Below are positions 1 through 58,118 of a stretch of 64,000 bases of DNA, in pieces (position 1 is the first letter of the stretch; the number at the start of each line of letters is the position of its first letter). Made by a program: the position numbers and the translations under genes. Origin of the DNA: Tepiditoga spiralis (GTDB lineage: Bacteria; Thermotogota; Thermotogae; Petrotogales; Petrotogaceae). The stretch is taken from the NCBI RefSeq assembly GCF_014701195.1, contig NZ_AP018712.1, forward strand, positions 2,064,501 to 2,128,500, read 5' to 3'. The notes under the pieces were generated by a model. The model searched no databases, was not told the origin of the DNA, and worked only from the letters and a program-made list of their open reading frames with translations.

Positions 1-212
1 AAGATAAAAAAGATAAAAAAATTTCTTTAGATGAATTCATTAAATTACTTTCAAATTGGATATTTTTTGAAGATAAAGAAGAAGATAATATAAGAAAGAA
101 AAAAGCCAAAGAAAAAAAAGCAAAAAAACTAGAACTTGATATAAAAGATTATAGTGAATCTAAAGTTGTATTAAATACATTAAACGAATATATGATTTTA
201 GGAGGATTTTAA
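1..212 (+). CDS. C-terminal end of an unknown protein (partial)
   Basis: An open frame enters from the left edge and runs about 69 codons to a TAA at 210-212 that overlaps the next start codon (TAATG). The visible tail is Lys/Glu-rich and probably helical, ending in NTLNEYMILGGF. I recognise no domain. The AGGAGG that serves the next gene lies inside its last codons, so the two genes are translationally coupled and very likely co-transcribed. Its identity would help decide whether the AAA+ gene that follows belongs to a CRISPR-associated operon. Confidence 0.6.
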   Translation, partial: DKKDKKISLDEFIKLLSNWIFFEDKEEDNIRKKKAKEKKAKKLELDIKDYSESKVVLNTLNEYMILGGF

Positions 213-1510
213 TGATATATATAGAAGAAGAATACGAAGATTTAATAAAACCAATAAAAAATTATTTAAAAAAACAATTTAAATCAAAAGAAGAAAATAT
301 AGATATTAGCAAATTTTTTACAAAAGAGTTTAATAAATGTACAATTTATATTGGAAATATAGATAAATATAACAAATACAAAGAAGAATTTAAAGAGATT
401 GAACCTAAAAAAATAATTTTAATCATAGATAAATATTTAGAAAAAAATATTTTAGAAAATTTTTTTAATTATAATATTATAGGAGTATTTAGAAAAAATA
501 AATTAAATACTGAATATGAAGAAATAGGTAAACTTGAAAAATTATTAAAAAATGAAATTAGAAAGCTAACTTATACAAAATTAGAAAAAGAAGATAAGTT
601 TTATATTAAAAGAATTGCTTATAAAAATATTAAAAATTGGAAATTCAATCCAGAATTCGATAATATAGAAGAATTTTATAGAAAAAGAAAATATATTTCT
701 ATATTTTTAGACATAACTATGCAAAAATTTTCAAGACAAATAAGAACTATTTTAAATGATTTTTATGAATTTAAAGAAAACTATGAAAATACTAAAGAAA
801 AAACTTTTAATGTTTTTCCTACTCTTTTAATAGAAGGAGAAACAGGAACTGGAAAATCATTAATTGCTGATATTATTTCTGATAACCTTCTTTTTGGAGA
901 AACAGCATACAAATTTTCACTTGTAAATATAGAAAAAAATTTAATTGACTCAGAATTATTTGGATATAAAAAAGGCGCTTTTACTGGAGCAGATAAAGAT
1001 AAACCTGGAAGAATAGTTTCTCATAAAGAAGAATTAATATTCTTAGATGAAATATCAGAAATACCCATAGAAACACAAACTAAATTATTATTATACTTTG
1101 ATGATAATAAAGTTTTACCAGAAGGATCCGATGGAGAACCAGAATACGCACCAGCTTTTATAATATGTGCAACAAACAAAAATATAAAAGAAGAAATAAA
1201 CAAAGGTAATTTTAGAAGCGATTTATACCACAGATTTAAATATAAAATAAAAATACCATCATTAAGAGAAAGAAAAGAAGATATAAGATTTTTAATAAAT
1301 TTTATACTATTAAATCCATTCATTAATAAATATGATAAAGAAAATAAAATTTATAAAGTAGATAAAATCTCGCTAGAAGCCATTGAAAAACTAGAAAATT
1401 ATGACTATCCAGGAAACTTTAGAGAACTAGAAAGTATATTAAGAGAAGCCTTGAATATTGCATATTTTGAAAAACAAGATATAATCTTACCAAAACATAT
1501 AAATATATAA
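212..1510 (+). CDS. sigma54-type AAA+ activator lacking a DNA-binding domain
   Basis: This 432-residue protein has a sigma54-activator ATPase core. Walker A is GETGTGKS near residue 210, the sigma54-contacting loop GAFTGAD is near 256, and Walker B LIFLDEIS is near 276, with sensor and arginine-finger regions after it (RSDLYHRF, PSLRERKEDIRF). The first 130 or so residues are not a clear receiver domain, although a strand rich in Ile/Leu (KKIILIIDKYLE) suggests a degenerate Rossmann or sensory fold. The protein stops at LPKHINI, where Fis-type helix-turn-helix domains normally begin, so it has no DNA-binding domain. It is coupled to the upstream partial gene and ends only 3 bp before the conserved CRISPR leader. 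By family it should remodel sigma54 RNA polymerase; its signal and target are unknown. RtcR-like or CRISPR-associated regulators are possible relatives. Confidence 0.8.
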   Translation: MIYIEEEYEDLIKPIKNYLKKQFKSKEENIDISKFFTKEFNKCTIYIGNIDKYNKYKEEFKEIEPKKIILIIDKYLEKNILENFFNYNIIGVFRKNKLNTEYEEIGKLEKLLKNEIRKLTYTKLEKEDKFYIKRIAYKNIKNWKFNPEFDNIEEFYRKRKYISIFLDITMQKFSRQIRTILNDFYEFKENYENTKEKTFNVFPTLLIEGETGTGKSLIADIISDNLLFGETAYKFSLVNIEKNLIDSELFGYKKGAFTGADKDKPGRIVSHKEELIFLDEISEIPIETQTKLLLYFDDNKVLPEGSDGEPEYAPAFIICATNKNIKEEINKGNFRSDLYHRFKYKIKIPSLRERKEDIRFLINFILLNPFINKYDKENKIYKVDKISLEAIEKLENYDYPGNFRELESILREALNIAYFEKQDIILPKHINI

Positions 1511-1743: not shown

Positions 1744-2672
1744 GTCTGAAAGATACTCTTCCCTGAAAGGGATAATAACTTTTCACCTTCATTCATTGCT
1801 TCTACTATGACTTCTAAGTCTGAAAGATACTCTTCCCTGAAAGGGATAATAACTTGGATCTCTTCGAGATATATATTACCATGTTTTCACCTGTCTGAAA
1901 GATACTCTTCCCTGAAAGGGATAATAACGGGTTCTTTGACATATTAAGAACCCTAATAAGGTCTGAAAGATACTCTTCCCTGAAAGGGATAATAACATCC
2001 AACCATTTCTGTCTATTGTTATTTCTTTTTCATCTAGTCTGAAAGATACTCTTCCCTGAAAGGGATAATAACGGGTTCTTTGACATATTAAGAACCCTTA
2101 CCAATTTTACTGTCTGAAAGATACTCTTCCCTGAAAGGGATAATAACCATTAATGCTATAGCATTTACAAGTAGATCGATTACTCGTCTGAAAGATACTC
2201 TTCCCTGAAAGGGATAATAACAAGTTTGGATAGAGCTATTTTTAAAATTTCTTTATCCATTGTCTGAAAGATACTCTTCCCTGAAAGGGATAATAACTGC
2301 ATCTGCTTCCATTTCTTCTACTACTTCTTTCATTTCATGTCTGAAAGATACTCTTCCCTGAAAGGGATAATAACACTTCATGTTCATCCATAACTTCTGC
2401 TATGACTTCTAAATGTCTGAAAGATACTCTTCCCTGAAAGGGATAATAACTTAGTAATAAGTTTGTTGCTATGAAAGTTAGTACTCCAGGTCTGAAAGAT
2501 ACTCTTCCCTGAAAGGGATAATAACGCCATAACGCCAACAACAACTAAACTACCAACAATAACAGGTCTGAAAGATACTCTTCCCTGAAAGGGATAATAA
2601 CAAAACATTATCAGCTGGTGTTAATGTTCTTACTAATTCTTGTCTGAAAGATACTCTTCCCTGAAAGGGATA
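1744..2672 (+). CRISPR. CRISPR array 1: 13 repeats, 12 spacers
   Basis: Repeats are 36 nt, starting GTCTGAAAGATACTC, carrying the stem TCCCT-GAA-AGGGA and ending ATAATAAC. Starts are at 1744, 1818, 1893, 1961, 2037, 2112, 2186, 2262, 2339, 2415, 2490, 2566 and 2642. The last copy loses its 3' end after about 31 nt, marking the leader-distal end. Spacers are 37-40 nt except spacer 3 (1929-1960), which is 32 nt. Spacers 3 and 5 share their first 26 nt, including the hairpin arms GGGTTCTT and AAGAACCC. No cas genes are visible, so the type cannot be read from the locus itself. Confidence 0.97.
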
Positions 2673-2849
2673 AGCATTTTCTTCAACAACTTTATGGAAT
2701 TTTATTTTTTTATTCTTTTCTTTTTCTTACGATCATTGATCCTTTCAAAATTCTTTTATTCTTCTTTTCTAAATTTATCCTTTAATCTTTTTTATAAAAT
2801 ATTTTTAATATACTAAATAAAAGAAAGATAAATCTTTATTTAGTATATT
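2673..2849. other. array 1 trailer, no gene seen
   Basis: AT-rich, T-rich stretch. Positions about 2725-2750 (CTTACGATCATTGATCC...) resemble a decayed copy of the 23-bp units found after array 2 at 10543-10611, so the two arrays seem to share trailing DNA as well as leaders. No ORF is supported. Confidence 0.4.
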
Positions 2850-6068: not shown

Positions 6069-6983
6069 ATGAAAAAATTAGAAAATGTTTTAGAAAGAAT
6101 AGCTAACTCATTAGAAGAAATTTCTAATTCATTAAAAATTACGAGTAATTACAATACTCAAAATATTATTTTGAAAAAAGAAATAATAAAAAATGAAGAA
6201 AATATAATAGAAATACCAAGAAAAAATGAAATAGAAGAATTTTTAAACTCTAAAAATATTCAAATAAAGACTTTAAAACCAGAAAAAAATGAAGAAATAT
6301 TAGATAACATAGCATATTTTATGGGTGAAAATTTTGAAAGTATAGAACCTATACTTAAATTATTAAAAAGAAATATAAATAGTTCTAATTATATAAATCT
6401 TGATATGAAAGATTTTACTCAAAGATCTATATCTGATATAACAAATTTATGTAATAGATTATATGAACTTACCTTTTTAAGTTCTTACATATATAAAAAA
6501 TCTCCAAAGTATAATCTTACAGCAAAAGTTAATAAGATACCAGAAGCAATAAATTTTTTAAATGGAGAATGGTTTGAACGTTATTTAAAATTAAAAGTTA
6601 TAAAAAGTTTAGAAATGAACAAACAAAACAAAAAGATAAAATATTCATATATAAAAAATCCACAAATAATATTGCCAAATGGTGATGATTTTGAATTAGA
6701 TTTAATGTTTAAAATTGATGATGAAATATTTTGGATAGAAGCAAAAACTGGTGAATATCAAAATTCTTTAAAAAAATATTCCAAAATAAAAAAAATGTTA
6801 AATTTAAAAAGAAAAAATGTTTTTGTTGTTTTGACAAAAAATTTAGAAGATAGAATGAAAAGTGCTTTAAGCACTATGTTTGATATGAATGTAATAAACA
6901 TTAAAGAATTTGAAAATAAATTTTTAAATAATGTTCTAAACTTAAATGAACATGTAATAGATGAAAAAATAATAAATATTTAA
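6069..6983 (+). CDS. Card1/Can2-like PD-(D/E)XK nuclease without evident CARF
   Basis: 304 residues, starting after a GGGGGAAA site. Residues 1-60 are a predicted coiled coil followed by a charged linker; 60-160 are helical. From about residue 160 the protein matches the nuclease half of the Card1/Can2/DUF1887 family: FLNGEWFERYL (Glu/Trp of the first helix), FELDLMF (metal-binding Asp near 208) and FWIEAKTG (E-x-K near 222-225), then a Lys-rich stretch and VFVVLTKN. In Card1/Can2 this domain is activated by cyclic oligoadenylate bound to an N-terminal CARF domain. Here the N-terminus is too short and too helical to be a normal CARF, so activation must differ. Position between two CRISPR arrays supports a defence role. 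Confidence 0.65.
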   Translation: MKKLENVLERIANSLEEISNSLKITSNYNTQNIILKKEIIKNEENIIEIPRKNEIEEFLNSKNIQIKTLKPEKNEEILDNIAYFMGENFESIEPILKLLKRNINSSNYINLDMKDFTQRSISDITNLCNRLYELTFLSSYIYKKSPKYNLTAKVNKIPEAINFLNGEWFERYLKLKVIKSLEMNKQNKKIKYSYIKNPQIILPNGDDFELDLMFKIDDEIFWIEAKTGEYQNSLKKYSKIKKMLNLKRKNVFVVLTKNLEDRMKSALSTMFDMNVINIKEFENKFLNNVLNLNEHVIDEKIINI

Positions 6984-9020: not shown

Positions 9021-10482
9021 GTCTGAATGCTACTCTTCCCTGAAAGGGATAATAACTTTTCTGTTTGAACTAAAATTAAAACCATATTTTTTGTTGTCTG
9101 AATGCTACTCTTCCCTGAAAGGGATAATAACTTAGCTAAGCTAAGAACCTTAATTAGCTTAATCAATTCGTCTGAATGCTACTCTTCCCTGAAAGGGATA
9201 ATAACGTATAATTGGCAACCTCCATGTCATTTACTTTGGGTAGAGTCTGAATGCTACTCTTCCCTGAAAGGGATAATAACTACTTGCCCCTTATCTCATT
9301 GTTGTCCAACCATTTCTGTCGTCTGAATGCTACTCTTCCCTGAAAGGGATAATAACACCCTTATTAACTTAGTTACTTCATGTTCATCCATAACTGTCTG
9401 AATGCTACTCTTCCCTGAAAGGGATAATAACTACTTGCCCCTTATCTCATTGTTGTCCAACCATTTCTGTCGTCTGAATGCTACTCTTCCCTGAAAGGGA
9501 TAATAACACCCTTATTAACTTAGTTACTTCATGTTCATCCATAACTGTCTGAATGCTACTCTTCCCTGAAAGGGATAATAACACTATTCTACTCTTTTTT
9601 TCTGGAAGAAATATATCTCTATGTCTGAATGCTACTCTTCCCTGAAAGGGATAATAACTAGATATGAAACATTTCTAAGTGATTGAATTTGAATCCTGTC
9701 TGAATGCTACTCTTCCCTGAAAGGGATAATAACCTGGGTCAATGAAACTAACTAGACCCAAAAAACTTCCAGATGTCTGAATGCTACTCTTCCCTGAAAG
9801 GGATAATAACTTTTTCTTCATCATAATATCTATTAACATATTATAGTCGTCTGAATGCTACTCTTCCCTGAAAGGGATAATAACATCTTCCTCCCAAAAT
9901 AAATCATAAATTTCTTCTCTAATGTCTGAATGCTACTCTTCCCTGAAAGGGATAATAACTAATTTGAGAACAAGCCTTTCGGGCTTGCTCGAAAATATGT
10001 CTGAATGCTACTCTTCCCTGAAAGGGATAATAACTTGCTATCTTAATTTTATTTGTAAGTTCTTCAGATAATTGTCTGAATGCTACTCTTCCCTGAAAGG
10101 GATAATAACATAAATAATTAAAATGTATACTTTGTCGAATAGTTCGAAGTCTGAATGCTACTCTTCCCTGAAAGGGATAATAACTGTATACATATCCTTC
10201 ATTTACTTTAATTACAAACTTTGTCTGAATGCTACTCTTCCCTGAAAGGGATAATAACTTCAAATGTTTCACTGAAATACATATAACCATCAATAGCGTC
10301 TGAATGCTACTCTTCCCTGAAAGGGATAATAACTAATTTGAGAACAAGCCTTTCGGGCTTGCTCGAAAATATGTCTGAATGCTACTCTTCCCTGAAAGGG
10401 ATAATAACACTTACATAAACTTTATTATCTATTATTCTCATACCTTGTCTGAATGCTACTCTTCCCTGAAAGGGATAATAAC
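9021..10482 (+). CRISPR. CRISPR array 2: 20 repeats, 19 spacers
   Basis: 36-nt repeats starting GTCTGAATGCTACTC; they differ from array 1 only at repeat positions 8 and 10, and the stem-loop and ATAATAAC end are the same. Starts: 9021, 9096, 9170, 9245, 9321, 9396, 9472, 9547, 9623, 9698, 9775, 9849, 9924, 9999, 10074, 10149, 10223, 10298, 10373, 10447. Two consecutive spacers (9281-9320 and 9357-9395) are repeated at once as 9432-9471 and 9508-9546, a 151-bp tandem duplication. The spacer at 9960-9998 recurs at 10334-10372. The last repeat here is intact, and the degenerate true end of the array lies at 15451. Confidence 0.97.
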
Positions 10483-10611: not shown

Positions 10612-10677
10612 CCTTTTTTTTATTTTAAAGAAGATTTGATATAATAACATGTAAGGATATAAAAAGAGGTGATAAAA

Positions 10678-12465
10678 ATGAAAAAAAGGCTTCCAATAGG
10701 AAGAAGTGACTTCAAATCTTTAATTGAAGATAATATGTATTTTGTAGATAAAAGCTTGTTAATAAAAGAAGTTATTGAAAGTGGCGATGTTTTATTAATA
10801 ACAAGGCCAAGAAGGTTTGGGAAAACTCTCAGTCAATCTATGATGAAGTACTTTTTTGATATTACTCAAAATAACGAACACCTCTTTAAAGCTTTAAAAA
10901 TATATAAAGAAAAGAACATAATAGAAAAACATTTAAATAAACATCCTGTTATATACATCACCTTTAAAGATTTAAAGTCCAACAACTTAAAAAAGATGCA
11001 TGATTTATTAATTTCTGAACTTTCAACTTTGTATATAGATCATAAGTATGTTTTAGATGTATTAGATGAAGAAGAAAAATCAGTATATAAATCAATAACC
11101 TCAAAAAAAGCAAATGATTCTGAATATGAAAATTCTATAAGAAACTTATCAAAGTATATGGAAAGATATTATGGTAAAAAGGTAATAATATTAATAGATG
11201 AATACGATACTCCTATTCAACAAGCTTACTTACACGGATACTATGATGAAATAATATCTTTAATTGGTAACTTATTTGGCATGGCATTAAAAGATAACGT
11301 ATATCTTGAAAAAGCAGTTCTTACTGGTATAACAAGAGTTTCTAAAGAAAGTATCTTTACTGGTGTGAATAACTTAAAGGTTTCTACTGTATTGAATGAA
11401 CTATTCAATGATAAGTATGGTTTAACTAAAGAAGAAGTAGAAGAAACATTGAAGTATTATGATCTTGAATATGAAGAAAGTGAAGTTATAGATTGGTACA
11501 ACGGTTATAACTTTGGTGGTGTTGAAATTTACAATCCTTTTTCTATTATAAACTTAGTAGATGAGAAAAAGATAGGACCATATTGGATGAATACGAGTGG
11601 GAATTATTTAATAAGAAAGTTAATAAAAGAAGGAACTGTTAATATAAAAGATAGTATAGAAAAACTTTTGAATGGAGAAAAGGTTGAAAGTAAAATAAAT
11701 GAAACTATGGTTTATGGTGATTTGCACATAAATTCAAATGAATCAATATGGACATTGTTTTTATTTAGCGGTTACTTAAAATGGATTAAAGAAACAAAAG
11801 AAGGTTATAGAAGATACACACTTGCTATTCCAAATAAAGAAGTAAGAATGTTTTATGAAGATACAGTGTTATTAATGCTTGAAGAAGAAAATATACAATT
11901 AGATAATATACTAATAAACTTAATAAATGGACATATAGAAGAGTTTAAAGAAGACTTTCAAAAACTAACAATGAATACATTGAGTTATTTTGATGTTAGT
12001 GGAGAAGAACCAGAAAGGTTTTATCATGGATTAATACTTGGAATGAGCGTTGGATTAAAAGAAAAGTACATAATAAAGAGTAATAGAGAAACATGGCTTG
12101 GAAGAGCTGATGTTATATTAATTCCAAAAGATAAAACAGATAAAGGAATAATAATAGAGTTTAAAAAGTTTTATAAAAACGAAAAAACACTATTAAATAG
12201 CGCTCAAAATGGATTAAAACAAATAAATGAAAAGAAGTATGAAGAAGAGATAAAAAATTATGGTATAAATGACATAATAAAAGTTTCAATAGCTTTTGAC
12301 AAAAAAGAGGTTGAAATTGTTAGTAATTTGGATAAAGATACTGAATTAACAGAAATGGAAAAAGTAGCAAAAGGAATGTTAGAAAAAAAGTTAGATATAA
12401 ATATGATTTCTGAATTAACTGGTATTCCAATAGAAAAATTAAAAAATATGTATAATCATTTATAA
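10678..12465 (+). CDS. AAA-ATPase-like/PDDEXK_9 fusion protein
   Basis: ATG at 10678 (MKKRLPIGRSDFKSL) is preferred over GTG 10669 because GAGGTG lies 6-7 nt before it. The 595-residue protein has the AAA-ATPase_like layout: FVDKSLLI, a variant Walker A TRPRRFGKTL near residue 40 and Walker B VIILIDEYDTPI near 175. The C-terminal half has a PDDEXK_9 nuclease-like core (WLGRADVILIPKD, then IIIEFKKF) and ends in a short helical motif (MISELTGIPIEKLKNMY). It is a divergent relative of the two genes at 45208 and 56583. Such proteins are abundant and mobile in anaerobes; their role is unproven, perhaps phage defence. It has its own promoter-like TATAAT near 10640 and a terminator. Confidence 0.85.
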   Translation: MKKRLPIGRSDFKSLIEDNMYFVDKSLLIKEVIESGDVLLITRPRRFGKTLSQSMMKYFFDITQNNEHLFKALKIYKEKNIIEKHLNKHPVIYITFKDLKSNNLKKMHDLLISELSTLYIDHKYVLDVLDEEEKSVYKSITSKKANDSEYENSIRNLSKYMERYYGKKVIILIDEYDTPIQQAYLHGYYDEIISLIGNLFGMALKDNVYLEKAVLTGITRVSKESIFTGVNNLKVSTVLNELFNDKYGLTKEEVEETLKYYDLEYEESEVIDWYNGYNFGGVEIYNPFSIINLVDEKKIGPYWMNTSGNYLIRKLIKEGTVNIKDSIEKLLNGEKVESKINETMVYGDLHINSNESIWTLFLFSGYLKWIKETKEGYRRYTLAIPNKEVRMFYEDTVLLMLEEENIQLDNILINLINGHIEEFKEDFQKLTMNTLSYFDVSGEEPERFYHGLILGMSVGLKEKYIIKSNRETWLGRADVILIPKDKTDKGIIIEFKKFYKNEKTLLNSAQNGLKQINEKKYEEEIKNYGINDIIKVSIAFDKKEVEIVSNLDKDTELTEMEKVAKGMLEKKLDINMISELTGIPIEKLKNMYNHL

Positions 12466-12740: not shown

Positions 12741-12928
12741 TAATATACATAAGTTTATATCCTTTAAATACTACTAAAACATATAAAAATTAAACTAAAA
12801 TATTTCCAAAAATGCAACAATGTTTAATGTATAATAAAAGTAAGCCAGGAATACAATTGAAAAATGGGCCAGGAAGGAAAAAATATGATAAACTCTTCTC
12901 AGAGAACAAGAGAGGAGTTGAAGGAAGG

Positions 12929-14473
12929 ATGATAAGATTGGGCCAAAAAAGAGAAATAATAATATTATATTTTAGAGAAAACAAATCAGAGATAAGCAGA
13001 AAAACAGGAATTAACAGAAAAACAGTAAATAAATATATAAATGAATATGAAGATGCATTAAAAGAATTTGAAAAGGTAGAAAGTAAAAAGAGTAAAGAAG
13101 AAATAATAGAAATTATAACAGGTAAACCAAAATATAAAGTTTCAAATAGAAAACCCAGAAAAGTCACAGAAGAATTAAGAATTAAAATAGAAGAGTTAGT
13201 TAAAGCAAATGAATTAAAAAGGCAAAAAGGGTTGAGAAAACAAACTATGCCAGTTACTCAAATGTATGAAATTATTCGAGATGAAGGGTATGAGATTAGT
13301 ATAGGAACAATATATAATATTGTAAAGAAATTTAATACAAAAAGAACTAAAGAGGCTTATATAAAACAAAGATATAATCCTGGAGAAATTGTTGAATTCG
13401 ATTGGGGAGAAGTTAAGTTAGAAATAAATGGAATCAATAAAAAGTTTCAAATGGCAGTATTTACTTTTGCATATAGTAATTATAGATATGCGTTATTGTA
13501 TGAAAAACAAAATATGGAGAGTTTTATAGATTCACACGTAAGGTTTTTTGAACATATTGGTGGTATTAATAAAACTATTGTATATGACAATATGAAAGTT
13601 GCAATAAGAAAATTTGTAGGGCATAACGATAGAGAGTTGACAGATGATTTAACTAAATTATCATTATATTATAAATTCGATATAAGGTTTTGTAATGTGA
13701 GAAAACCAAATGAAAAAGGTCATGTAGAAAAGAGTGTCAATGTATTGAAACAAAGAGCATTTTCAATAAAAGATAAATTTAAAAATATAGATGATGCAAA
13801 TGAATTTTTGAGTTCAAGAGTCAAATATTTAAATGAAAATATGAAAAACACATCAAACATTAGCCCTTTAAAGTTGTTAAAAGAAGAAAAAGAATATTTA
13901 ATATGCAAACCACCAAAATATGAATATTCAATAATAAAAGAAGTTTATGTAGATAAATATTCAACTATAACTTTAAATAACTGTCATTACTCGGTACCAG
14001 TAGAATATACTAATAAATGGTTAAAGGTTAAGTTATATCCAGAAAAGATAATAATATATGATGAAAAACCTATTGCTACTCATAAAAGGTTATATGGTAA
14101 TAATATGTGGAAAATAGAAATAAATCATTATTTATCATTATTAAAAAGAAAACCTGGTGCATTGCATAGTAGTTTAGCTCTGCATCAGGTCCCACAAAAA
14201 ATAAAAAAAATCTACAATAACTATTTTACCACAAAACCAAAAGAATTCATAAACTTATTAGAGTATATGTATAAAAATAATTTAAGAATAAATGATATTG
14301 AAGAAACAATTGAAAAGTTAGAACGTATAAGTCCAAAAGATATAAGCGCTACAAAAATAAAGATACTCTATGAAAATAAAATTAATAATAATCAAAAAAA
14401 TAAATATCAAGGAACAATAGAAGAATATTCAAGAAAACAATTGTTGCATTTAAAAGAGCTGATCAAATCATGA
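12929..14473 (+). CDS. istA: IS21-family transposase IstA
   Basis: ATG at 12929 (MIRLGQKREII) follows AAGGA and lies inside the element; an in-frame ATG at 12812 would start outside it. The 514-residue protein has an N-terminal helix-turn-helix (ISRKTGINRKTVNKYI), a second DNA-binding region, and an rve integrase core with EFDWGEVKL (first Asp), YDNMKVAI (second Asp) and NEKGHVEKSV (Glu). The end is a C-terminal binding domain. Its stop overlaps the istB start (ATGA), the usual IS21 arrangement. The gene looks intact. Confidence 0.93.
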   Translation: MIRLGQKREIIILYFRENKSEISRKTGINRKTVNKYINEYEDALKEFEKVESKKSKEEIIEIITGKPKYKVSNRKPRKVTEELRIKIEELVKANELKRQKGLRKQTMPVTQMYEIIRDEGYEISIGTIYNIVKKFNTKRTKEAYIKQRYNPGEIVEFDWGEVKLEINGINKKFQMAVFTFAYSNYRYALLYEKQNMESFIDSHVRFFEHIGGINKTIVYDNMKVAIRKFVGHNDRELTDDLTKLSLYYKFDIRFCNVRKPNEKGHVEKSVNVLKQRAFSIKDKFKNIDDANEFLSSRVKYLNENMKNTSNISPLKLLKEEKEYLICKPPKYEYSIIKEVYVDKYSTITLNNCHYSVPVEYTNKWLKVKLYPEKIIIYDEKPIATHKRLYGNNMWKIEINHYLSLLKRKPGALHSSLALHQVPQKIKKIYNNYFTTKPKEFINLLEYMYKNNLRINDIEETIEKLERISPKDISATKIKILYENKINNNQKNKYQGTIEEYSRKQLLHLKELIKS

Positions 14474-15236
14474 AAAATAACAAAAATAAAATATATGAAG
14501 AAATAGAGTTTTATTCAAAAGAATTAAAGTTATCAAAATTAAAAATACATTTTAAAGAATATATAAAAGATGCAAATAATACAGAGATAAGTTATGAATC
14601 ATTTTTGTATGAGATATTAAAAAAAGAATATGAAAGATTATTAGATTCAAGATTAAAAAGCAGGATAAGAACAGCAAATTTCTCACAAAAAAAATATATA
14701 GAAGATTTAGAAAAAGAATATTTACCAGAAGATGCAAGAAAAAAATTAAAAGTATTATCTACATTAGAATTTATACAAACAAATCAGAATGTAATATTAT
14801 CTGGTAATCCTGGAACAGGGAAAACTCATATAGCAATAGGACTTGGTATGAAAGCTTGTATGAAAGGATTTAAAGTATTATTTACAACAATTCCATTATT
14901 AATAACTCAATTAAAAGAATCTAGATCAAATAAAACTTTGAGAGCTTTTCAAAGTAAATTTGGAAAATATGACCTTGTAATATGTGATGAATTAGGATAC
15001 ATATCTTTTGACAAAGAAGGTGCTGAATTATTATTTTCTTTATTATCTCTAAGAGCAACAAGAAAATCTACTGTAATAACAACTAATTTATCCTTTGATA
15101 GATGGGAAGAAATATTTAATGATCCTGTATTATCTGCAGCTATGATCGATAGATTAACTCATAGAGCTTATATGGCCAATATGAACATAGTTATAGATTA
15201 AAAGAAACAGAAGAATTTATAAAATCTTTGGATTGA
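14470..15236 (+). pseudogene. istB: IS21-family helper ATPase IstB, C-terminus frameshifted
   Basis: DnaA/IstB-like AAA+ protein with Walker A SGNPGTGKTHIA near residue 115 and Walker B DLVICDELGY near 170, then TTNLSFDRW. The frame stops at 15201 after NIVID. The expected family ending is visible just downstream in another frame (LKETEEFIKSLD, stop at 15236), so about 10-13 bases have been lost, probably between the nearby direct repeats TATAGAT. Only the last dozen residues are affected, so partial activity is possible, but the element may be immobile. Confidence 0.8.
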
Positions 15237-15381
15237 TTGGAGGGATGCTTATAGAAAGATTGGTGAGATTATAATATTAACAAACTCTTAATGTTTCCTG
15301 AAACGTGGTTTTATTCAGCGTTTTATTTTTTTGGCCCATTTTTCAATTGTAATTTGGCTTATTCTTCACTTGCAAAATACA

Positions 15382-15480
15382 GAATGCTACTCTTCCCTGA
15401 AAGGGATAATAACATGTATTCGACCCCACTTTTTCTCAAGATAACTTTAAGTCTGAATGCTACTCTTCCCTGAAAGGGAT
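15382..15480 (+). CRISPR. displaced terminal fragment of array 2
   Basis: A repeat lacking its first four bases (15382-15413), one 37-nt spacer (15414-15450) and a final repeat starting at 15451 that degenerates after 30 nt. The repeats carry the array 2 version (GAATGCTACTC). The degenerate end and following CATATTCTTCAGCAA resemble the end of array 1 (GCATTTTCTTCAACAA), so this is the real leader-distal end of array 2. Confidence 0.9.
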
Positions 15481-15546
15481 TAATCATATTCTTCAGCAAG
15501 TTCTGAAAATACTTTATTTTTTTATTTAAAGTATCATAAATTAGAA

Positions 15547-16811: not shown

Positions 16812-19544
16812 TTAATCAAATTCTATTTTTAATTTTTTATTATTAATAGTAATATTAGCATTTTCAAGTTCATCAGTTATATCTTTTTTAACTTCGTTAG
16901 TTATATCATTTTTTATATATTTTTTTTCCCCTTCAAATTCTGGATTTTTAATCAATTTAAAATGTATTGTCATTACATCTTTTTTATCTGACCATTCAAA
17001 CCAAGTTGGAAATACTGAATTAACAGCAAAATGTTTATCAAAATGTGGAAATTGTCTTGCTTTAAATAAAATTTTATTAACTTGCCCTAATCTATTTAAG
17101 TTAATTTCATTTTTATCTTTTATATATTCTTTTAATTTATTGTATAATTTCTTTTCTAACGATTTTGCTTTTTCTTCTATTTCTTTATAATTTTTATTTT
17201 TTAATTTTAAATTTTCATTCATCAATTTAAAATTAGTTTCAAATTCTTCATAAATAGTATCTATATTTTTAGAATCATTTAAAAATCTATTTATATTAAT
17301 CATAATATCAAAAGCAGTTCTTTGTTTTTTCATTTCATGATAGCTTTTTGTAACTATTCTATCGTTTTGAACGTCTGTTCCATCTATAAACTTAATCCAT
17401 CTTGCTGAATGAATAATAATTTTTTTTAAGTTATCATCTTTTATATTTTCAACTACTTTAGCTAAAGGAGAATAATCAATATCAAAAATTTTTACATACT
17501 CCTTATCGCATTTTTCTAATTTATCATCAATTGGTAGATAACCTCTATGATATTTACAAATATATTTAATTGCGTTTATAATTTCTTTTGATTTATTGCC
17601 AAATAAATCCTGTAAAGTTTTTGATTTATCAGAAAATTTATTATTAATAGCTAAAATATCAAACGATTCATCATCTATTAAATTTAATGTTAATTCATTG
17701 TGTAAATCTCTAACTAAAGAAGGAAAAGCATCCACATAAAAATCTTCTCTAGACTTTAATTTAAACTTTGAATATGTATGTCCTAAATCATGAACATTTA
17801 AAGCTACTCCAAACAAAAAGTAAAATAAGTCTCTATAATTTATACCTTCAACATACTCTTTATCTAATTCTACTTTGGGTAAGAAGTTCCTTTCTCCAAT
17901 AACTCTTATAATTTTTACAGTCATTTCCATTAATCTTTTACTATGTCTTTGTGAATGTTCTACGGTTTCTGGAATTAAGTCTCCTATCCACATATGAGTC
18001 CATTTATTAAATATTCCATATTTAATATAATCATATAATTCATTATTTTTAATAAATTTTAAATAAGATTCTCCATATCCAAATGGCATATTTCTTCTTT
18101 CTTTATAACTTTTCAATATCAATTCTACTGGAAAAAACTCTTTTAATTCTTCTCTGTTTTTATAATACAAAGATTGAATATTTTTGGGTAAGTACTTATA
18201 AATTTTATTAAATTCTTCTTTATTTCTATAATTATTTATTATATTGTATAATTCATCAAGATATTGATAATCCCAATCTATTCCTATTTCAGGAAATTTA
18301 AAAATATCTCCAGTTTCAAACTTATAATAAAATTCTTTTTTATTAAATAACGCATACAAAGAAACTATTATTGAAAACAACTTATTACCTGGTCCTATAT
18401 CAAATATTAAGTTGTTAGAACTTTGATATAATTTATTTAAAACATCCCAAGTATCTACAAATAAAGTTTTTGACTTATTGCTATCATTAGAATCATAATC
18501 ATTAGATATATATTCAATATTTTTAATATTTAATATATCTTTACATATTTTGTAGAAAAATGGATAAACACTTGGAAATCTTCTTCTGTTTTCATTAAAA
18601 AAATATTCTTTTTGATTAAAATCATTAATTTCCGTATCAAAAAAAGATGAATAATTTTTTCTAAAATTTTTATCAGTATTTTCTAAATATTCAACATCAA
18701 ATTTTTCATCTATAAAAGGATTTGAAACATAAGTATATACGGTATTTATATCAAATCCACTCTCTTTAAGTGATATTAAAGTTCCTATCTCTGCAGAACT
18801 TTCAATTAAAGCTTCTCTATTGTAATAATTTTTATCTTTAAACATCTTTTTTATTTCATCAAATATATTTTTTTTAGGATTATTAATATTACTTTTCAAT
18901 GATAATCCAAGTGATAAAAATACATCAACTTTTCCTTTTAATCTATTTTCTATAAAAAATTTGATATCAGTTATATTCAAAATCTTTTTTTCTTTATCAA
19001 ACTTAAAAATATTAGCAATGCTTTTATTCTTTAGTTTTTCTTCATCATTTTTGTCTATTAATTTTAATTTTTTTCCAAAAATTTTTTTTGCTTCATTATC
19101 TAAGTCAATATTTTTTTTTGATTTTTCTTCAACTTCAACAATATAAATTTTATTTAAATCATATTTATCTACAACATTATAATTAATATTATCTTGAAAT
19201 AAATATTCATCAATGATAATTTCTGGGTCTTTTTTTACTACATATCTTATTTTAGCAATACATGGTTTATCCATTAAATCTTTCTCAAGACTATAATCAA
19301 TTGATTCTTCAATTTCTTCTCTTTCATTAAGTTTATTTGTTTCCTTCTTAATTGTTTTTATCCATTCATAAGAATAACCATCATTTAATAATCTTATATT
19401 TAATCTTATTCTTTCTTCAAATTCATCTTTAATTTTTGTATACCATTGAATAATCCCTACTTTTTCTATACAATTATCTTTTAAATTATCAATAATAGAC
19501 GTATTTTTTAATATATAAAACTTTTTTTCTCTTTCAATACTCAT
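16812..19544 (-). CDS. CYTH domain - Rossmann/CARF-like region - HD phosphohydrolase fusion
   Basis: 910 residues. Residues 1-150 carry nearly all CYTH (triphosphate tunnel) signatures in order: EREKKF, RIRLNIR, WIKTIKKE, REEIEES, AKIRY, IIIDEYL and IYIVEVEEKS. Residues about 200-450 look like a nucleotide-binding fold: DVFLSLGLSL near 206 and NLIFDIGPGNKLFSI near 383, the latter resembling the Gly-rich DxTGGTK loop of CARF proteins. From about 525 an HD hydrolase follows: VEHSQRHSK, LNVHDLGHT near 583, DLHNELT, KYHRGY near 666 and FIDGTDVQ near 720. CYTH proteins bind or cleave nucleoside or inorganic triphosphates, and HD domains hydrolyse phosphoesters including cyclic nucleotides. The fusion suggests nucleotide-signal sensing or destruction beside CRISPR arrays. 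It is transcribed alone, toward the island. Confidence 0.75.
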   Translation of the reverse strand: MSIEREKKFYILKNTSIIDNLKDNCIEKVGIIQWYTKIKDEFEERIRLNIRLLNDGYSYEWIKTIKKETNKLNEREEIEESIDYSLEKDLMDKPCIAKIRYVVKKDPEIIIDEYLFQDNINYNVVDKYDLNKIYIVEVEEKSKKNIDLDNEAKKIFGKKLKLIDKNDEEKLKNKSIANIFKFDKEKKILNITDIKFFIENRLKGKVDVFLSLGLSLKSNINNPKKNIFDEIKKMFKDKNYYNREALIESSAEIGTLISLKESGFDINTVYTYVSNPFIDEKFDVEYLENTDKNFRKNYSSFFDTEINDFNQKEYFFNENRRRFPSVYPFFYKICKDILNIKNIEYISNDYDSNDSNKSKTLFVDTWDVLNKLYQSSNNLIFDIGPGNKLFSIIVSLYALFNKKEFYYKFETGDIFKFPEIGIDWDYQYLDELYNIINNYRNKEEFNKIYKYLPKNIQSLYYKNREELKEFFPVELILKSYKERRNMPFGYGESYLKFIKNNELYDYIKYGIFNKWTHMWIGDLIPETVEHSQRHSKRLMEMTVKIIRVIGERNFLPKVELDKEYVEGINYRDLFYFLFGVALNVHDLGHTYSKFKLKSREDFYVDAFPSLVRDLHNELTLNLIDDESFDILAINNKFSDKSKTLQDLFGNKSKEIINAIKYICKYHRGYLPIDDKLEKCDKEYVKIFDIDYSPLAKVVENIKDDNLKKIIIHSARWIKFIDGTDVQNDRIVTKSYHEMKKQRTAFDIMININRFLNDSKNIDTIYEEFETNFKLMNENLKLKNKNYKEIEEKAKSLEKKLYNKLKEYIKDKNEINLNRLGQVNKILFKARQFPHFDKHFAVNSVFPTWFEWSDKKDVMTIHFKLIKNPEFEGEKKYIKNDITNEVKKDITDELENANITINNKKLKIEFD

Positions 19545-19612: not shown

Positions 19613-19642
19613 AAAAATCCTCTTTTAAAAAGAGGATTTTTT
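19613..19642. terminator. bidirectional terminator
   Basis: AAAATCCTCTTTT / AAAAGAGGATTTT palindrome with T tracts on both sides; it ends the alcohol dehydrogenase transcript. Confidence 0.8.
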
Positions 19643-45180: not shown

Positions 45181-45208
45181 AAAAAATAATCCCAGCACCC
45201 GCTGGGAT
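45181..45208 (-). terminator. terminator hairpin of the AAA-ATPase gene
   Basis: ATCCCAGCACCCGCTGGGAT (45189-45208) with T residues downstream on the minus strand, overlapping the stop codon. Identical hairpins occur at 56564 and 58187. The group II intron is inserted immediately behind it. Confidence 0.85.
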
Positions 45209-46743
45209 TATATCTTTTCTATTTTGTATTCGTCTATGTTTCTCTTTTCTGAGTTTATGTTTATTCCTACTATATAAATTTCTTTCCCTTTGTATTTTTC
45301 ATAGTACTTCATTTCTTTTATTTGGGTTAAGGCTTTTTCTGCACTTTTATCTATCTTTATTTCCATTATGTATATGATGTCTTCCTCTATTACTATATCG
45401 CTTCTTCCTAAGTTCGTTAATTCTTCTGCTGTTACGTTCAGTCCTGCTGATGCTATTATTGTGTATATCAATGAATGATAGTAACTTTCTTCTTTTTTGT
45501 GCAAGTTGTATGGTATTGCACTTATTATTCTTTTTATTTCTTTTATTATTCCTTCTATGTCTTTTTCTTTTATTGCTTTCCATATCGTTTTATTTATTTC
45601 TTTTATTTTTCCTCTTTCAAGTTCATAGTTTGCTTCTAATATCATCTTTGAAAAACTGTTCTTTACTTCTATGTTTGGATAGTCTAATAGATATTCATAT
45701 TCCATTCCATATTGTTCTTTTCCTTTAAAGGTTAAGTATCCTGATTGTGTAAAGAATATGCTTGCATTTGCTTCTTCTATTTCTCGGGTTGAAAAATCGA
45801 GTTCGCTCACTGGATACTTCACTAAGTCTTCGTATCTTATCTTCTTCCCTTTTATGTATTCATACAAGAATGATGGTGATCCACTTTCAAACCAATAGTT
45901 TTGAAACTTTCTTTCATTAAAAAATCTTAATATTGAAAATGGATTGTATACACTATCTTCTCCATCAAATGAAAATCCATTGTAGTACATCTTTAAGTTT
46001 TTTAATAACTCTTTTTCTTTCATATTCATTTCAAGTGCTGTTTCTTTTATGTGTTCTTTAAAGTTTCTTTCTAACTCTTCTTGTGTGTATCCCAACATCT
46101 GCGCGTATTTTTTATTCAATGATATATCATTTAAGTTGTTCAATGCTGAAAATACTCCTGTTTTTGTGAACTTTGTTATTCCTGTCATAAATACAAACTT
46201 TATGTATTCATCTTTTGATTTTATACTCACATAAAAGTCTTTCAATATTTCTCTATACTTTTCTGCTTTTTCTTTGTTGTTTATATTGTCTAATATTGGT
46301 TTTTCATATTCATCTACTAATATTACTACTCTTTCTTTTTTTGATAGTTTTATTATCAGTTCATTGAATGCAAACTTGTAGTCTGTTTCTGTTATTTCTA
46401 TTCCATTTCGCTTTCCTTCTAATTTTATTATCTTTGTTAAACTTTCTTTCATTCTTTCCACATTATCTGTTGCTACATCTAAAAGGTTTATCCTTATTAC
46501 TGGATATTCTTTGAACTCCCATTTGTCGTATATGTATGTTTCTTTAAATAGGTCTTTTTCTCCTTTAAATAGATAGTAAAGTGTTGATATCGTTAAACTC
46601 TTTCCAAATCTTCTTGGGCGAGATAAAAAGATTGGTGCTTCTGAACTTATTAATTCTAATATATACTTTGTTTTATCTATATATGTATAGTTTCCTTCTT
46701 TTATTTTTTTATAGTCTTGTACTCCTATTGGTAGTTTTTTCAT
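45208..46743 (-). CDS. AAA-ATPase-like/PDDEXK_9 protein, copy 2
   Basis: ATG at 46743 (MKKLPIGVQDYKKI) follows GAGGTG; the upstream in-frame start is rejected. 511 residues: IDKTKYILELI, variant Walker A LSRPRRFGKSLTI near 45, Walker B VVILVDEYEKPIL near 150, FMTGITKFTKTGVFS, a middle helical region, then a PDDEXK_9 nuclease-like end (LNVTAEELTNLGRSDIV, YIMEIKIDKSAEKAL). It is almost identical to the gene at 56583, more distant from that at 10678. The family is widespread, often multi-copy and associated with horizontal transfer; the physiological role is unknown. Confidence 0.88.
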   Translation of the reverse strand: MKKLPIGVQDYKKIKEGNYTYIDKTKYILELISSEAPIFLSRPRRFGKSLTISTLYYLFKGEKDLFKETYIYDKWEFKEYPVIRINLLDVATDNVERMKESLTKIIKLEGKRNGIEITETDYKFAFNELIIKLSKKERVVILVDEYEKPILDNINNKEKAEKYREILKDFYVSIKSKDEYIKFVFMTGITKFTKTGVFSALNNLNDISLNKKYAQMLGYTQEELERNFKEHIKETALEMNMKEKELLKNLKMYYNGFSFDGEDSVYNPFSILRFFNERKFQNYWFESGSPSFLYEYIKGKKIRYEDLVKYPVSELDFSTREIEEANASIFFTQSGYLTFKGKEQYGMEYEYLLDYPNIEVKNSFSKMILEANYELERGKIKEINKTIWKAIKEKDIEGIIKEIKRIISAIPYNLHKKEESYYHSLIYTIIASAGLNVTAEELTNLGRSDIVIEEDIIYIMEIKIDKSAEKALTQIKEMKYYEKYKGKEIYIVGININSEKRNIDEYKIEKI

Positions 46744-56468: not shown

Positions 56469-56563
56469 AGTTTTTTTTAAGGTCTATTTTGCCACTCTTG
56501 TAATTTTGGTAAAATGTTATCAGTTATTTTACACTCCCTTTTATATATTCTTTATAAAAAAAT

Positions 56564-56583
56564 ATCCCAGCACCCGCTGGGAT
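56564..56583 (-). terminator. terminator hairpin of AAA-ATPase copy 3
   Basis: ATCCCAGCACCCGCTGGGAT followed on the minus strand by ATTTTTTTATA; identical to 45189-45208. Confidence 0.85.
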
Positions 56584-58118
56584 TATATCTTTTCTATTTT
56601 GTATTCGTCTATGTTCCTTTTTTCTGAGTTTATGTTTATTCCTATTATATAAATTTCTTTTTCTTTGTACTTTTCATAGTACTTCATTTCTTTTATTTGA
56701 TTTAAAGCTTTTTCTGCACTTTTGTCTATCTTTATTTCCATTATGTATATAGTGTCTTCCTCTATTACTATATCGCTTCTTCCTAAGTTCGTTAATTCTT
56801 CTGCTGTTACGTTCAGTCCTGCTGATGCTATTATTGTGTATATCAATGAATGATAGTAGCTTTCTTCTTTTTTGTGCAAGTTGTATGGGATTGCACTTAT
56901 TATTCTTTTTATTTCTTTTATTATTTCTTCTATGTCTTTTTCTTTTATTGCTTTCCATATCGTTTTGTTTATTTCTTTTATTTTTCCCCTTTCAAGTTCA
57001 TAGTTTGCTTCTAATATCATCTTTGAAAAGCTGTTCTTTACTTCTATATTTGGATAGTCTAATAGGTATTCATATTCCATTCCATATTGTTCTTTTCCTT
57101 TAAAAGTTAAGTATCCTGCTTGTGTAAAGAATATGCTTGCATTTGCTTCTTCTATTTCTCGGGTTGAAAAATCGAGTTTGCTCACTGGATACTTTACTAA
57201 GTCTTCGTATCTTATCTTCTTCCCTTTTATGTATTCGTACAAAAATGATGGTGATCCACTTTCAAACCAATAGTTTTCAAATTCTCTTTTTTTAAAAAAT
57301 TGTAGTATTGAAAATGGATTGTATACAGAATTTTTTCCATCAAATGAAAATCCATTGTAGTACATCTTTAAGTTTTTTAATAACTCTTTTTCTTCCATCT
57401 TCATTTCAAGTGCTGTTTCTTTTATGTGCTCTTTAAAGTTACTTTCCAACTCTTCTTGTGTGTATCCCAACATCTGTGCATATGCTTTATCCAATGATAT
57501 ATCGTTTAAGTTGTTCAATGCTGAAAATACTCCTGTTTTTGTGAACTTTGTTATTCCTGTCATGAATACAAACTTTATGTATTCGTCTTTTGATTTTATA
57601 CTCACATAAAAGTCTCTCAATATTTCTCTATACTTTTCTGCTTTTTCTTTGTTGTTTATATTGTCTAATATTGGTTTTTCATATTCATCTACTAATATTA
57701 CTACTCTTTCTTTTTTTGATAGTTTTATTATCAGTTCATTGAATGCAAACTTGTAGTCTGTTTCTGTTATTTCTATTCCATTTCGCTTTCCTTCTAATTT
57801 TATTATCTTTGTTAAACTTTCTTTCATTCTTTCCACATTATCTGTTGCTACATCTAAAAGGTTTATCCTTATTACTGGATATTCTTTGAACTCCCATTTG
57901 TCGTATATGTATGTTTCTTTAAATAGGTCTTTTTCTCCTTTAAATAGATAGTAAAGTGTTGATATCGTTAAACTCTTTCCAAATCTTCTTGGGCGAGATA
58001 AAAAAATAGGTGCTTCTGAACTTATTAAATCTAATATATACTTCGTTTTATCTATATATGTATAATTTCCTTCTTTTATTTTTTTATAGTCTTGTACTCC
58101 TATTGGTAGTTTTTTCAT
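56583..58118 (-). CDS. AAA-ATPase-like/PDDEXK_9 protein, copy 3
   Basis: 511 residues, nearly identical to the gene at 45208 (the differences are scattered conservative changes such as LDLISS for LELISS). Same Walker A variant RPRRFGKS, VILVDEYEKP, and nuclease-like NLGRSDIVIEED with YIMEIKID. It starts after GAGGTGATAAAAA. The high identity with the copy 11 kb away implies recent duplication or gene conversion. It is flanked on both sides by the same 20-bp hairpin, consistent with movement as a gene-plus-terminator unit. Confidence 0.88.
   Translation of the reverse strand: MKKLPIGVQDYKKIKEGNYTYIDKTKYILDLISSEAPIFLSRPRRFGKSLTISTLYYLFKGEKDLFKETYIYDKWEFKEYPVIRINLLDVATDNVERMKESLTKIIKLEGKRNGIEITETDYKFAFNELIIKLSKKERVVILVDEYEKPILDNINNKEKAEKYREILRDFYVSIKSKDEYIKFVFMTGITKFTKTGVFSALNNLNDISLDKAYAQMLGYTQEELESNFKEHIKETALEMKMEEKELLKNLKMYYNGFSFDGKNSVYNPFSILQFFKKREFENYWFESGSPSFLYEYIKGKKIRYEDLVKYPVSKLDFSTREIEEANASIFFTQAGYLTFKGKEQYGMEYEYLLDYPNIEVKNSFSKMILEANYELERGKIKEINKTIWKAIKEKDIEEIIKEIKRIISAIPYNLHKKEESYYHSLIYTIIASAGLNVTAEELTNLGRSDIVIEEDTIYIMEIKIDKSAEKALNQIKEMKYYEKYKEKEIYIIGININSEKRNIDEYKIEKI

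Follow-up and report, generated by a model that had tools for sequence, protein, structure and literature searches.

What does a 910-residue protein that joins a CYTH domain, a CARF domain, and an HD domain do beside the CRISPR arrays of Tepiditoga spiralis? The gene in question lies on the minus strand at positions 16812..19544 of the window, by which we mean the whole 64,000-nucleotide stretch that was analyzed (C1:2064501-2128500 of a genome consisting of a 2.5-Mb contig). It is a single intact open reading frame (ORF) with an ATG start and zero internal stops, and a purine-rich, ribosome-binding-like AAAAGGGGG is found directly 5' of the ATG. Terminator-like stems on either side, one separating it from the upstream gene (19613-19641) and a second just 3' of it (16805-16775), suggest that it is probably a single-gene unit, i.e., monocistronic. 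The protein matches the PADLOC model CARF7--CARF_CYTH_HD over residues 120-905 with E = 2.3e-192, while the second-ranked model is CARF7--CARF_HD (E = 1e-50, matching the CARF and HD parts). Its AlphaFold2 model, produced from a 20-sequence alignment, has a mean pLDDT of 81 and a pTM of 0.80. When this model was compared to the PDB using Foldseek, there were two matches below 0.001, one to Cami1 (cA4-bound, CARF7 family) and one to the CYTH protein PH1819. The next matches were to the Sis0811 ring nuclease, Csa3, VTC polyphosphate polymerase, and vaccinia capping enzyme. Relatives of the protein include loci labeled Athalassotoga, Kosmotogaceae, and Thermotogae bacterium.

The center of the protein, which the initial annotation had described as nucleotide-fold-like, is a genuine CARF domain of the CARF7/APE2256 family by both profile and fold (residues about 190-430, minus strand 18255..18977, with FDIGPGNKLFSI at 381-392). 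Pfam Cas_APE2256 (CARF) is matched by 18/20 aligned relatives, the best at 7.8e-18, and the family profile matches the CARF chains of 3qyf, Cami1, and Sis0811 in the PDB at 5.6e-14, 2e-9, and 3e-8, respectively. Structure prediction, which had been put forward as a check on this region, returned a CARF and not an unrelated fold, with Foldseek probabilities of 1.00 to Cami1, Sis0811, and Csa3. The CARF family is therefore common to our protein, to the cA4-activated CARF-RelE protein Cami1, and to Sis0811, with significant profile and fold matches to both. The rest of the architecture differs since the effector part is RelE in Cami1 and a ring nuclease in Sis0811, whereas here the CARF stands between CYTH and HD. 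By family, cA4 is probably the ligand. In the alignment, S215 and K388 fall opposite S12 and K169 of Sis0811, the residues that are mutated in its PDB entries, and the first position is Ser in 17/20 relatives, while the second is Lys in 18/20 and Arg in 2. Since this Ser and Lys are retained, the CARF could be self-limiting, cleaving its own activator. Three of the relatives (L014, L015, and L017) have an extra C-terminal stretch of ~140 residues with the CARF-like motifs TPLGTSPGVLYTL and NLAGGTSFLQY, which makes them CYTH-CARF-HD-CARF proteins.

The HD domain (residues about 501-860, minus strand 16965..18044) is strictly kept. The motifs picked out from the letters, HDLGH (585-589), KYHRGY (around 664-669), and FIDGTDVQ (719-726), are present, and the metal ligands, which were to be checked on alignment, are all there: H530, H534, H585, D586, H615, H666, D721, and D724 are unchanged in 27/27 relatives, which are drawn from Thermotogota, Synergistota, and a single Omnitrophota genome. 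Pfam HD-CE is matched by 20/20 aligned relatives and by 27/27 in the wider HD alignment. Our protein scores 26.9 bits when searched whole, just under the cut-off of 27, and 29.4 bits with the HD part alone. Compared to the PDB, the HD profile gave insignificant matches only, to the HD protein 2o6i (E 0.09) and to cyclic nucleotide phosphodiesterases (E 0.4), so homology does not set the substrate class.

The N-terminal 180 residues (minus strand 19005..19544) form a CYTH, or triphosphate-tunnel, domain with a complete tunnel set, as judged from the AlphaFold2 model, a fold match, and the alignment. The CYTH signatures claimed at the outset are indeed there (EREKKF at residues 4-9 and IYIVEVEEK from 132) and correspond to ExExK near the N-terminus (E4, E6, and K8) and ExE near the end of the barrel (E137 and E139), both invariant in the 11 intact members. 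The entire tunnel set (E4, E6, K8, R45, R47, K66, R75, E77, K98, R100, D112, E137, and E139) is common to these 11/11 members, and the strands of the model together with a match to PDB 2een (E 6e-4, probability 1.00), the nearest solved fold, point to a tunnel. Pfam CYTH (PF01928) has zero matches in the entire genome and none above cut-off in the 20 relatives, so the assignment depends on motifs and fold rather than on Pfam; the CYTH profile likewise has no significant match in the PDB.

We considered which kind of CYTH enzyme this might be using published criteria, according to which thiamine triphosphatases display W/YxRxR, and class IV adenylate cyclases display HFxxxxExExK, a small residue for the first Arg of RxR, and Ala for the second Glu of ExE (PMC8233210). 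A thiamine triphosphatase was rejected because the 11 intact members have Glu or Gln in place of W/Y. A class IV adenylate cyclase, as the source of a second messenger, might be entertained since these cyclases belong to the CYTH family and 2een is an archaeal CYTH protein, but we find it highly improbable: HF is absent, and the first Arg of RxR (R45) and the second Glu of ExE (E139) are retained in 11/11 intact members, the opposite of true class IV cyclases at each site (PMC8233210). With no HF, both Arg, a nonaromatic residue two positions ahead of the first Arg, and both Glu of ExE, the domain fits, by its motifs, a TTM-type triphosphatase. It shares with SaTTM-like triphosphate tunnel enzymes the ExExK, RxR, and ExE signatures as well as the tunnel charge set, and differs from them in being fused to CARF and HD and in going unmatched by PF01928.

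This CYTH domain is often lost. Among the 20 aligned relatives, 11 have it complete, 3 have it in degenerate form, and 6 lack it, and in one further relative (L013, genome G015 C1:252255-254528), there is a frameshift within CYTH while the CARF and HD frame remains open. With the HD invariant and CYTH eroded, interrupted, or missing in many relatives, CARF and HD form the fixed core of the family, to which CYTH is an optional addition. Both versions occur in our genome, where a second copy (C1:2022742-2025060) also matches PADLOC CARF7--CARF_CYTH_HD. Its CYTH is degenerate, with E6 replaced by Lys, R45 by Asn, R47 by Lys, D112 by Tyr, and both K66 and R75 deleted; in its CARF, the Ser is replaced by Ala, and K388 and every HD ligand are retained. 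Identity between the two copies is 50% in the HD part and 31-38% across CARF and CYTH. Repeated decay of CYTH beside strict retention of CARF and HD amounts to a natural test of which domain is the working one.

The two copies mark opposite edges of a ~60-kb type III-B island. It encodes a III-B operon (Cmr1, Cas10, and Cmr3-6), Cas6, a PrimPol/RT-like protein, Cas1, a CRISPR-type Argonaute, and candidate effectors, both of CARF7-RelE type and, with two proteins, CARF4-PDDEXK-like. The Cas10 has an intact GGDD at 554-557 and should therefore make cyclic oligoadenylate (cOA); with no HD dipeptide, it is without the usual DNA-cutting domain. The island has five CRISPR arrays or array remnants, whose repeats all belong to a single family. 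Those in the window, all on the plus strand, include arrays at 1744..2680 and 9021..10480 and a two-repeat remnant at 15378..15487, the CRISPR element nearest to our gene at ~1.3 kb past its 3' end, which bears out the CRISPR neighborhood reported initially. Within the second array, two spacer-repeat units are duplicated in tandem (9245-9546), and a spacer of the first array (1997-2035) has TCCAACCATTTCTGTC in common with these units; both arrays may thus target the same element. The two CARF4--CARF_PDDEXK-like proteins (window 6069-6983 and L005:4057-5091) are close relatives of each other with weak matches to that model and are possible Can2/Card1-like nuclease effectors of the island's type III system. 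The PIWI/Argonaute protein (L004:15374-17305, C1 about 2040373-2042304, E 1e-242) adjoins Cas1, the PrimPol/RT-like protein, and Cas6. A separate Cas10-like locus with an 832-residue open frame is found outside the island, at C1:802720-803421.

In such an island, the protein might act as an off-switch, degrading cOA through a ring nuclease CARF and/or an HD phosphodiesterase and so ending signaling to the other effectors. The retained CARF Ser and Lys, the cyclic nucleotide phosphodiesterases among HD enzymes (weak matches, as seen above), and the presence of other candidate effectors are consistent with this role, which we nevertheless consider doubtful. The CARF Ser is replaced in the paralog and in two other relatives (by Ala, Gly, or Asn) that still retain HD, degradation of cOA needs no CYTH, and the separate ring nucleases surveyed are limited to 250 residues (PMC12409355), unlike this 910-residue protein.

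We favor instead, with a probability of roughly 55%, that the protein serves the resident type III-B system as an ancillary factor: a cOA-activated nucleotide hydrolase, with HD as the main effector and CYTH as an accessory triphosphatase. This is in line with the suggestion in the initial annotation that it could sense a cyclic nucleotide and hydrolyze a nucleotide. The domain identities, the conserved active-site residues, and the linkage both to a GGDD-intact Cas10 and to the RNA polymerase cassette described below are established here, while cA4 as the ligand, the activation, the substrates, and the division of labor between HD and CYTH are inferred. The Cas10 complex would detect foreign RNA and make a cOA, probably cA4, which would bind the CARF of a dimer and switch on the HD phosphohydrolase. 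HD would then destroy nucleotides or a nucleotide-derived molecule, halting the phage or the cell, with CYTH assisting. Inorganic triphosphate is both the product set free by HD-type dNTP triphosphohydrolases and a compound that TTM enzymes cleave. Specifically, we propose that HD might free inorganic triphosphate from (d)NTPs and that the CYTH tunnel might cleave this triphosphate, a relay that would explain both the fusion and the dispensability of CYTH. The HD profile, for its part, matches no dNTPase significantly (2o6i at E 0.09). The CARF may slowly cleave its own activator, limiting the response. The list of cOA-gated type III enzymes is growing, but to our knowledge none of them flanks a single CARF with two metal-dependent phosphohydrolase domains. 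A precedent for depletion of the nucleotide pool is offered by Cad1, a cOA-gated CARF enzyme that converts ATP to ITP (PMC12669630).

The neighborhood holds a second unusual element. Between the cas operon and the start of the window, there is a 1,414-residue fused RpoB-RpoC RNA polymerase (RNAP; C1:2059672-2063916, L005:14673-18917), with matches to RpoB domain 6 (E 4e-36) and RpoC domain 2 (E 2e-22) and an intact catalytic NADFDGD. Downstream are a middle ORF of ~275 residues, with its end at window 1-213, and, as third gene of the cassette, an NtrC/FleQ-type AAA ATPase of 432 residues with no C-terminal DNA-binding domain (window 212..1510, plus strand). The cassette recurs in CRISPR loci of Thermotogota and Synergistota. 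The AAA gene is 3' of RNAP at every Thermotogota RNAP locus with a mapped downstream flank and likewise at the Synergistota loci, and the middle ORF was checked at eleven Thermotogota loci. The fused RNAP is not the housekeeping polymerase because the ordinary rpoB is elsewhere (C1:2462802-2464025), and its family scores hundreds to thousands of bits versus about 140-150 for ordinary RpoB. We also considered the N-terminus of the AAA protein as a possible CARF, which is not supported: the best matches are receiver + AAA regulators such as NtrC1. Both the paralog and the linked fused RNAP lie mostly outside the window and are absent from the initial annotation.

We therefore determined how often the RNAP and our protein family occur together, in 103 Thermotogota genomes, counting as carriers (CARF..HD) those whose match to CARF_(CYTH_)HD includes the HD part. 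The RNAP is present in 20/20 carriers versus 7/83 other genomes and, among the 49 genomes with a confident Cas10, in 18/18 with CARF..HD versus 1/31 without (Fisher p 9e-16 and p 1.6e-12, respectively, both overstated since genomes were treated as independent, with carriers spanning eight family-level groups). None of the seven genomes in which the CARF_CYTH_HD match covers the CARF part only has it (0/7). Cas10 is found in 18/20 carriers. We rejected the link as a by-product of type III presence because RNAP tracks CARF..HD among Cas10-positive genomes as well. CARF..HD is tied more tightly to this RNA polymerase than to type III systems generally, which makes a simple stand-alone toxin insufficient as an explanation and raises the question of what use a CRISPR system has for its own RNA polymerase.

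One possible answer, although we hold it to be on the unlikely side, is that the protein is part or regulator of the RNAP cassette, acting as the cOA-gated entry point to a transcription machine that is dedicated to CRISPR and composed of the fused RNAP, the middle protein, and the AAA protein. The cOA-bound CARF would let HD or CYTH take away a nucleotide or 5'-triphosphate by which the polymerase is controlled, or else RNAP and AAA would act downstream in CRISPR-triggered transcription. If so, type III signaling would govern an RNA polymerase of its own by way of nucleotide or triphosphate chemistry. The above counts speak for this reading, as does the fact that the CARF-HD gene directly adjoins the RNAP gene at several loci in Thermotogota and at most of those sampled in Synergistota. 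Moreover, an RNA triphosphatase was the protein in which the TTM fold was discovered (PMC8233210), and our fold matches include viral capping enzymes. However, CYTH-less CARF-HD proteins also adjoin RNAP, so CYTH is not needed for the link. Each partner also occurs without the other: four Synergistota loci, three of them beside Cas10, have CARF-HD without RNAP in the flanks examined, and the cassette is found without CARF..HD in 7 Thermotogota genomes. In one of these (L095, genome G046 C17), it adjoins the type I-B genes for Cas3, Cas8b, and Cas1 and is thus not restricted to type III. An incomplete Omnitrophota genome has CARF-HD and no RNAP above threshold.

The search for homologs and their neighbors placed them in type III loci and not only in housekeeping operons. 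A housekeeping origin was rejected because the mapped homologs are in CRISPR or RNAP-cassette neighborhoods, and a phage or plasmid origin because there are no CARF..HD relatives in viral contigs or plasmids. RNAP matches among the listed phage and plasmid records have about 34% identity or less, and many are ordinary RpoB/RpoC.

The initial annotation knew of no characterized protein with this layout. This holds in that we found no experiment on a CARF_CYTH_HD protein in the literature searched, but the layout itself had already been cataloged, both as a PADLOC model and in a 2023 survey. The protein is thus a well-conserved member of a cataloged but uncharacterized type. In architecture and family, it is identical to PADLOC CARF7--CARF_CYTH_HD, with no essential difference, although the best-scoring relatives for this model (L042 and L043) have a decayed CYTH, whereas the copy here is complete. 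PADLOC CARF7--CARF_HD has the same CARF and HD parts and invariant residues, lacks CYTH, and occurs in Synergistota as well as in other Thermotogota. The name CARF7--CARF_CYTH_HD reportedly goes back to the CARF classification of Makarova et al. 2020.

Altae-Tran et al. 2023 describe the candidate system UAS-58, a two-component RNAPol and CARF association near type III loci, the panel legend of which names CYTH, HD, and FleQ (PMC10910872). As in our locus, an RNA polymerase is genetically linked to a CARF protein, and we take UAS-58, from this text and legend, to be the same association as that of CARF..HD and RNAP. The linkage to RNAP is therefore not a wholly new discovery. That paper's text does not give the three-gene order, co-occurrence counts, CYTH decay, or a residue analysis (PMC10910872). 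What is new here is the Cami1/Sis0811-like CARF, the triphosphatase motifs of CYTH, the invariance of HD versus the decay of CYTH, and the figures for co-occurrence with RNAP.

Several other features of the region deserve mention. Within the island, the protein encoded at window 4053-5642 matches the PADLOC candidate defense family PDC-M40B (E 3e-108), and a protein with AAA-ATPase_like and PDDEXK_9 domains is found in repeated copies among the arrays (window 10669-12465, L003:14246-16045, and L005:30-1265). An IS21-type transposase and IstB pair (window 12812-15201) is inserted after the second array and before the two-repeat remnant. Finally, two 300-nt direct repeats that are 95% identical and 11.4 kb apart (window 45181-45480 and 56556-56855) are located where two minus-strand genes of similar size end.
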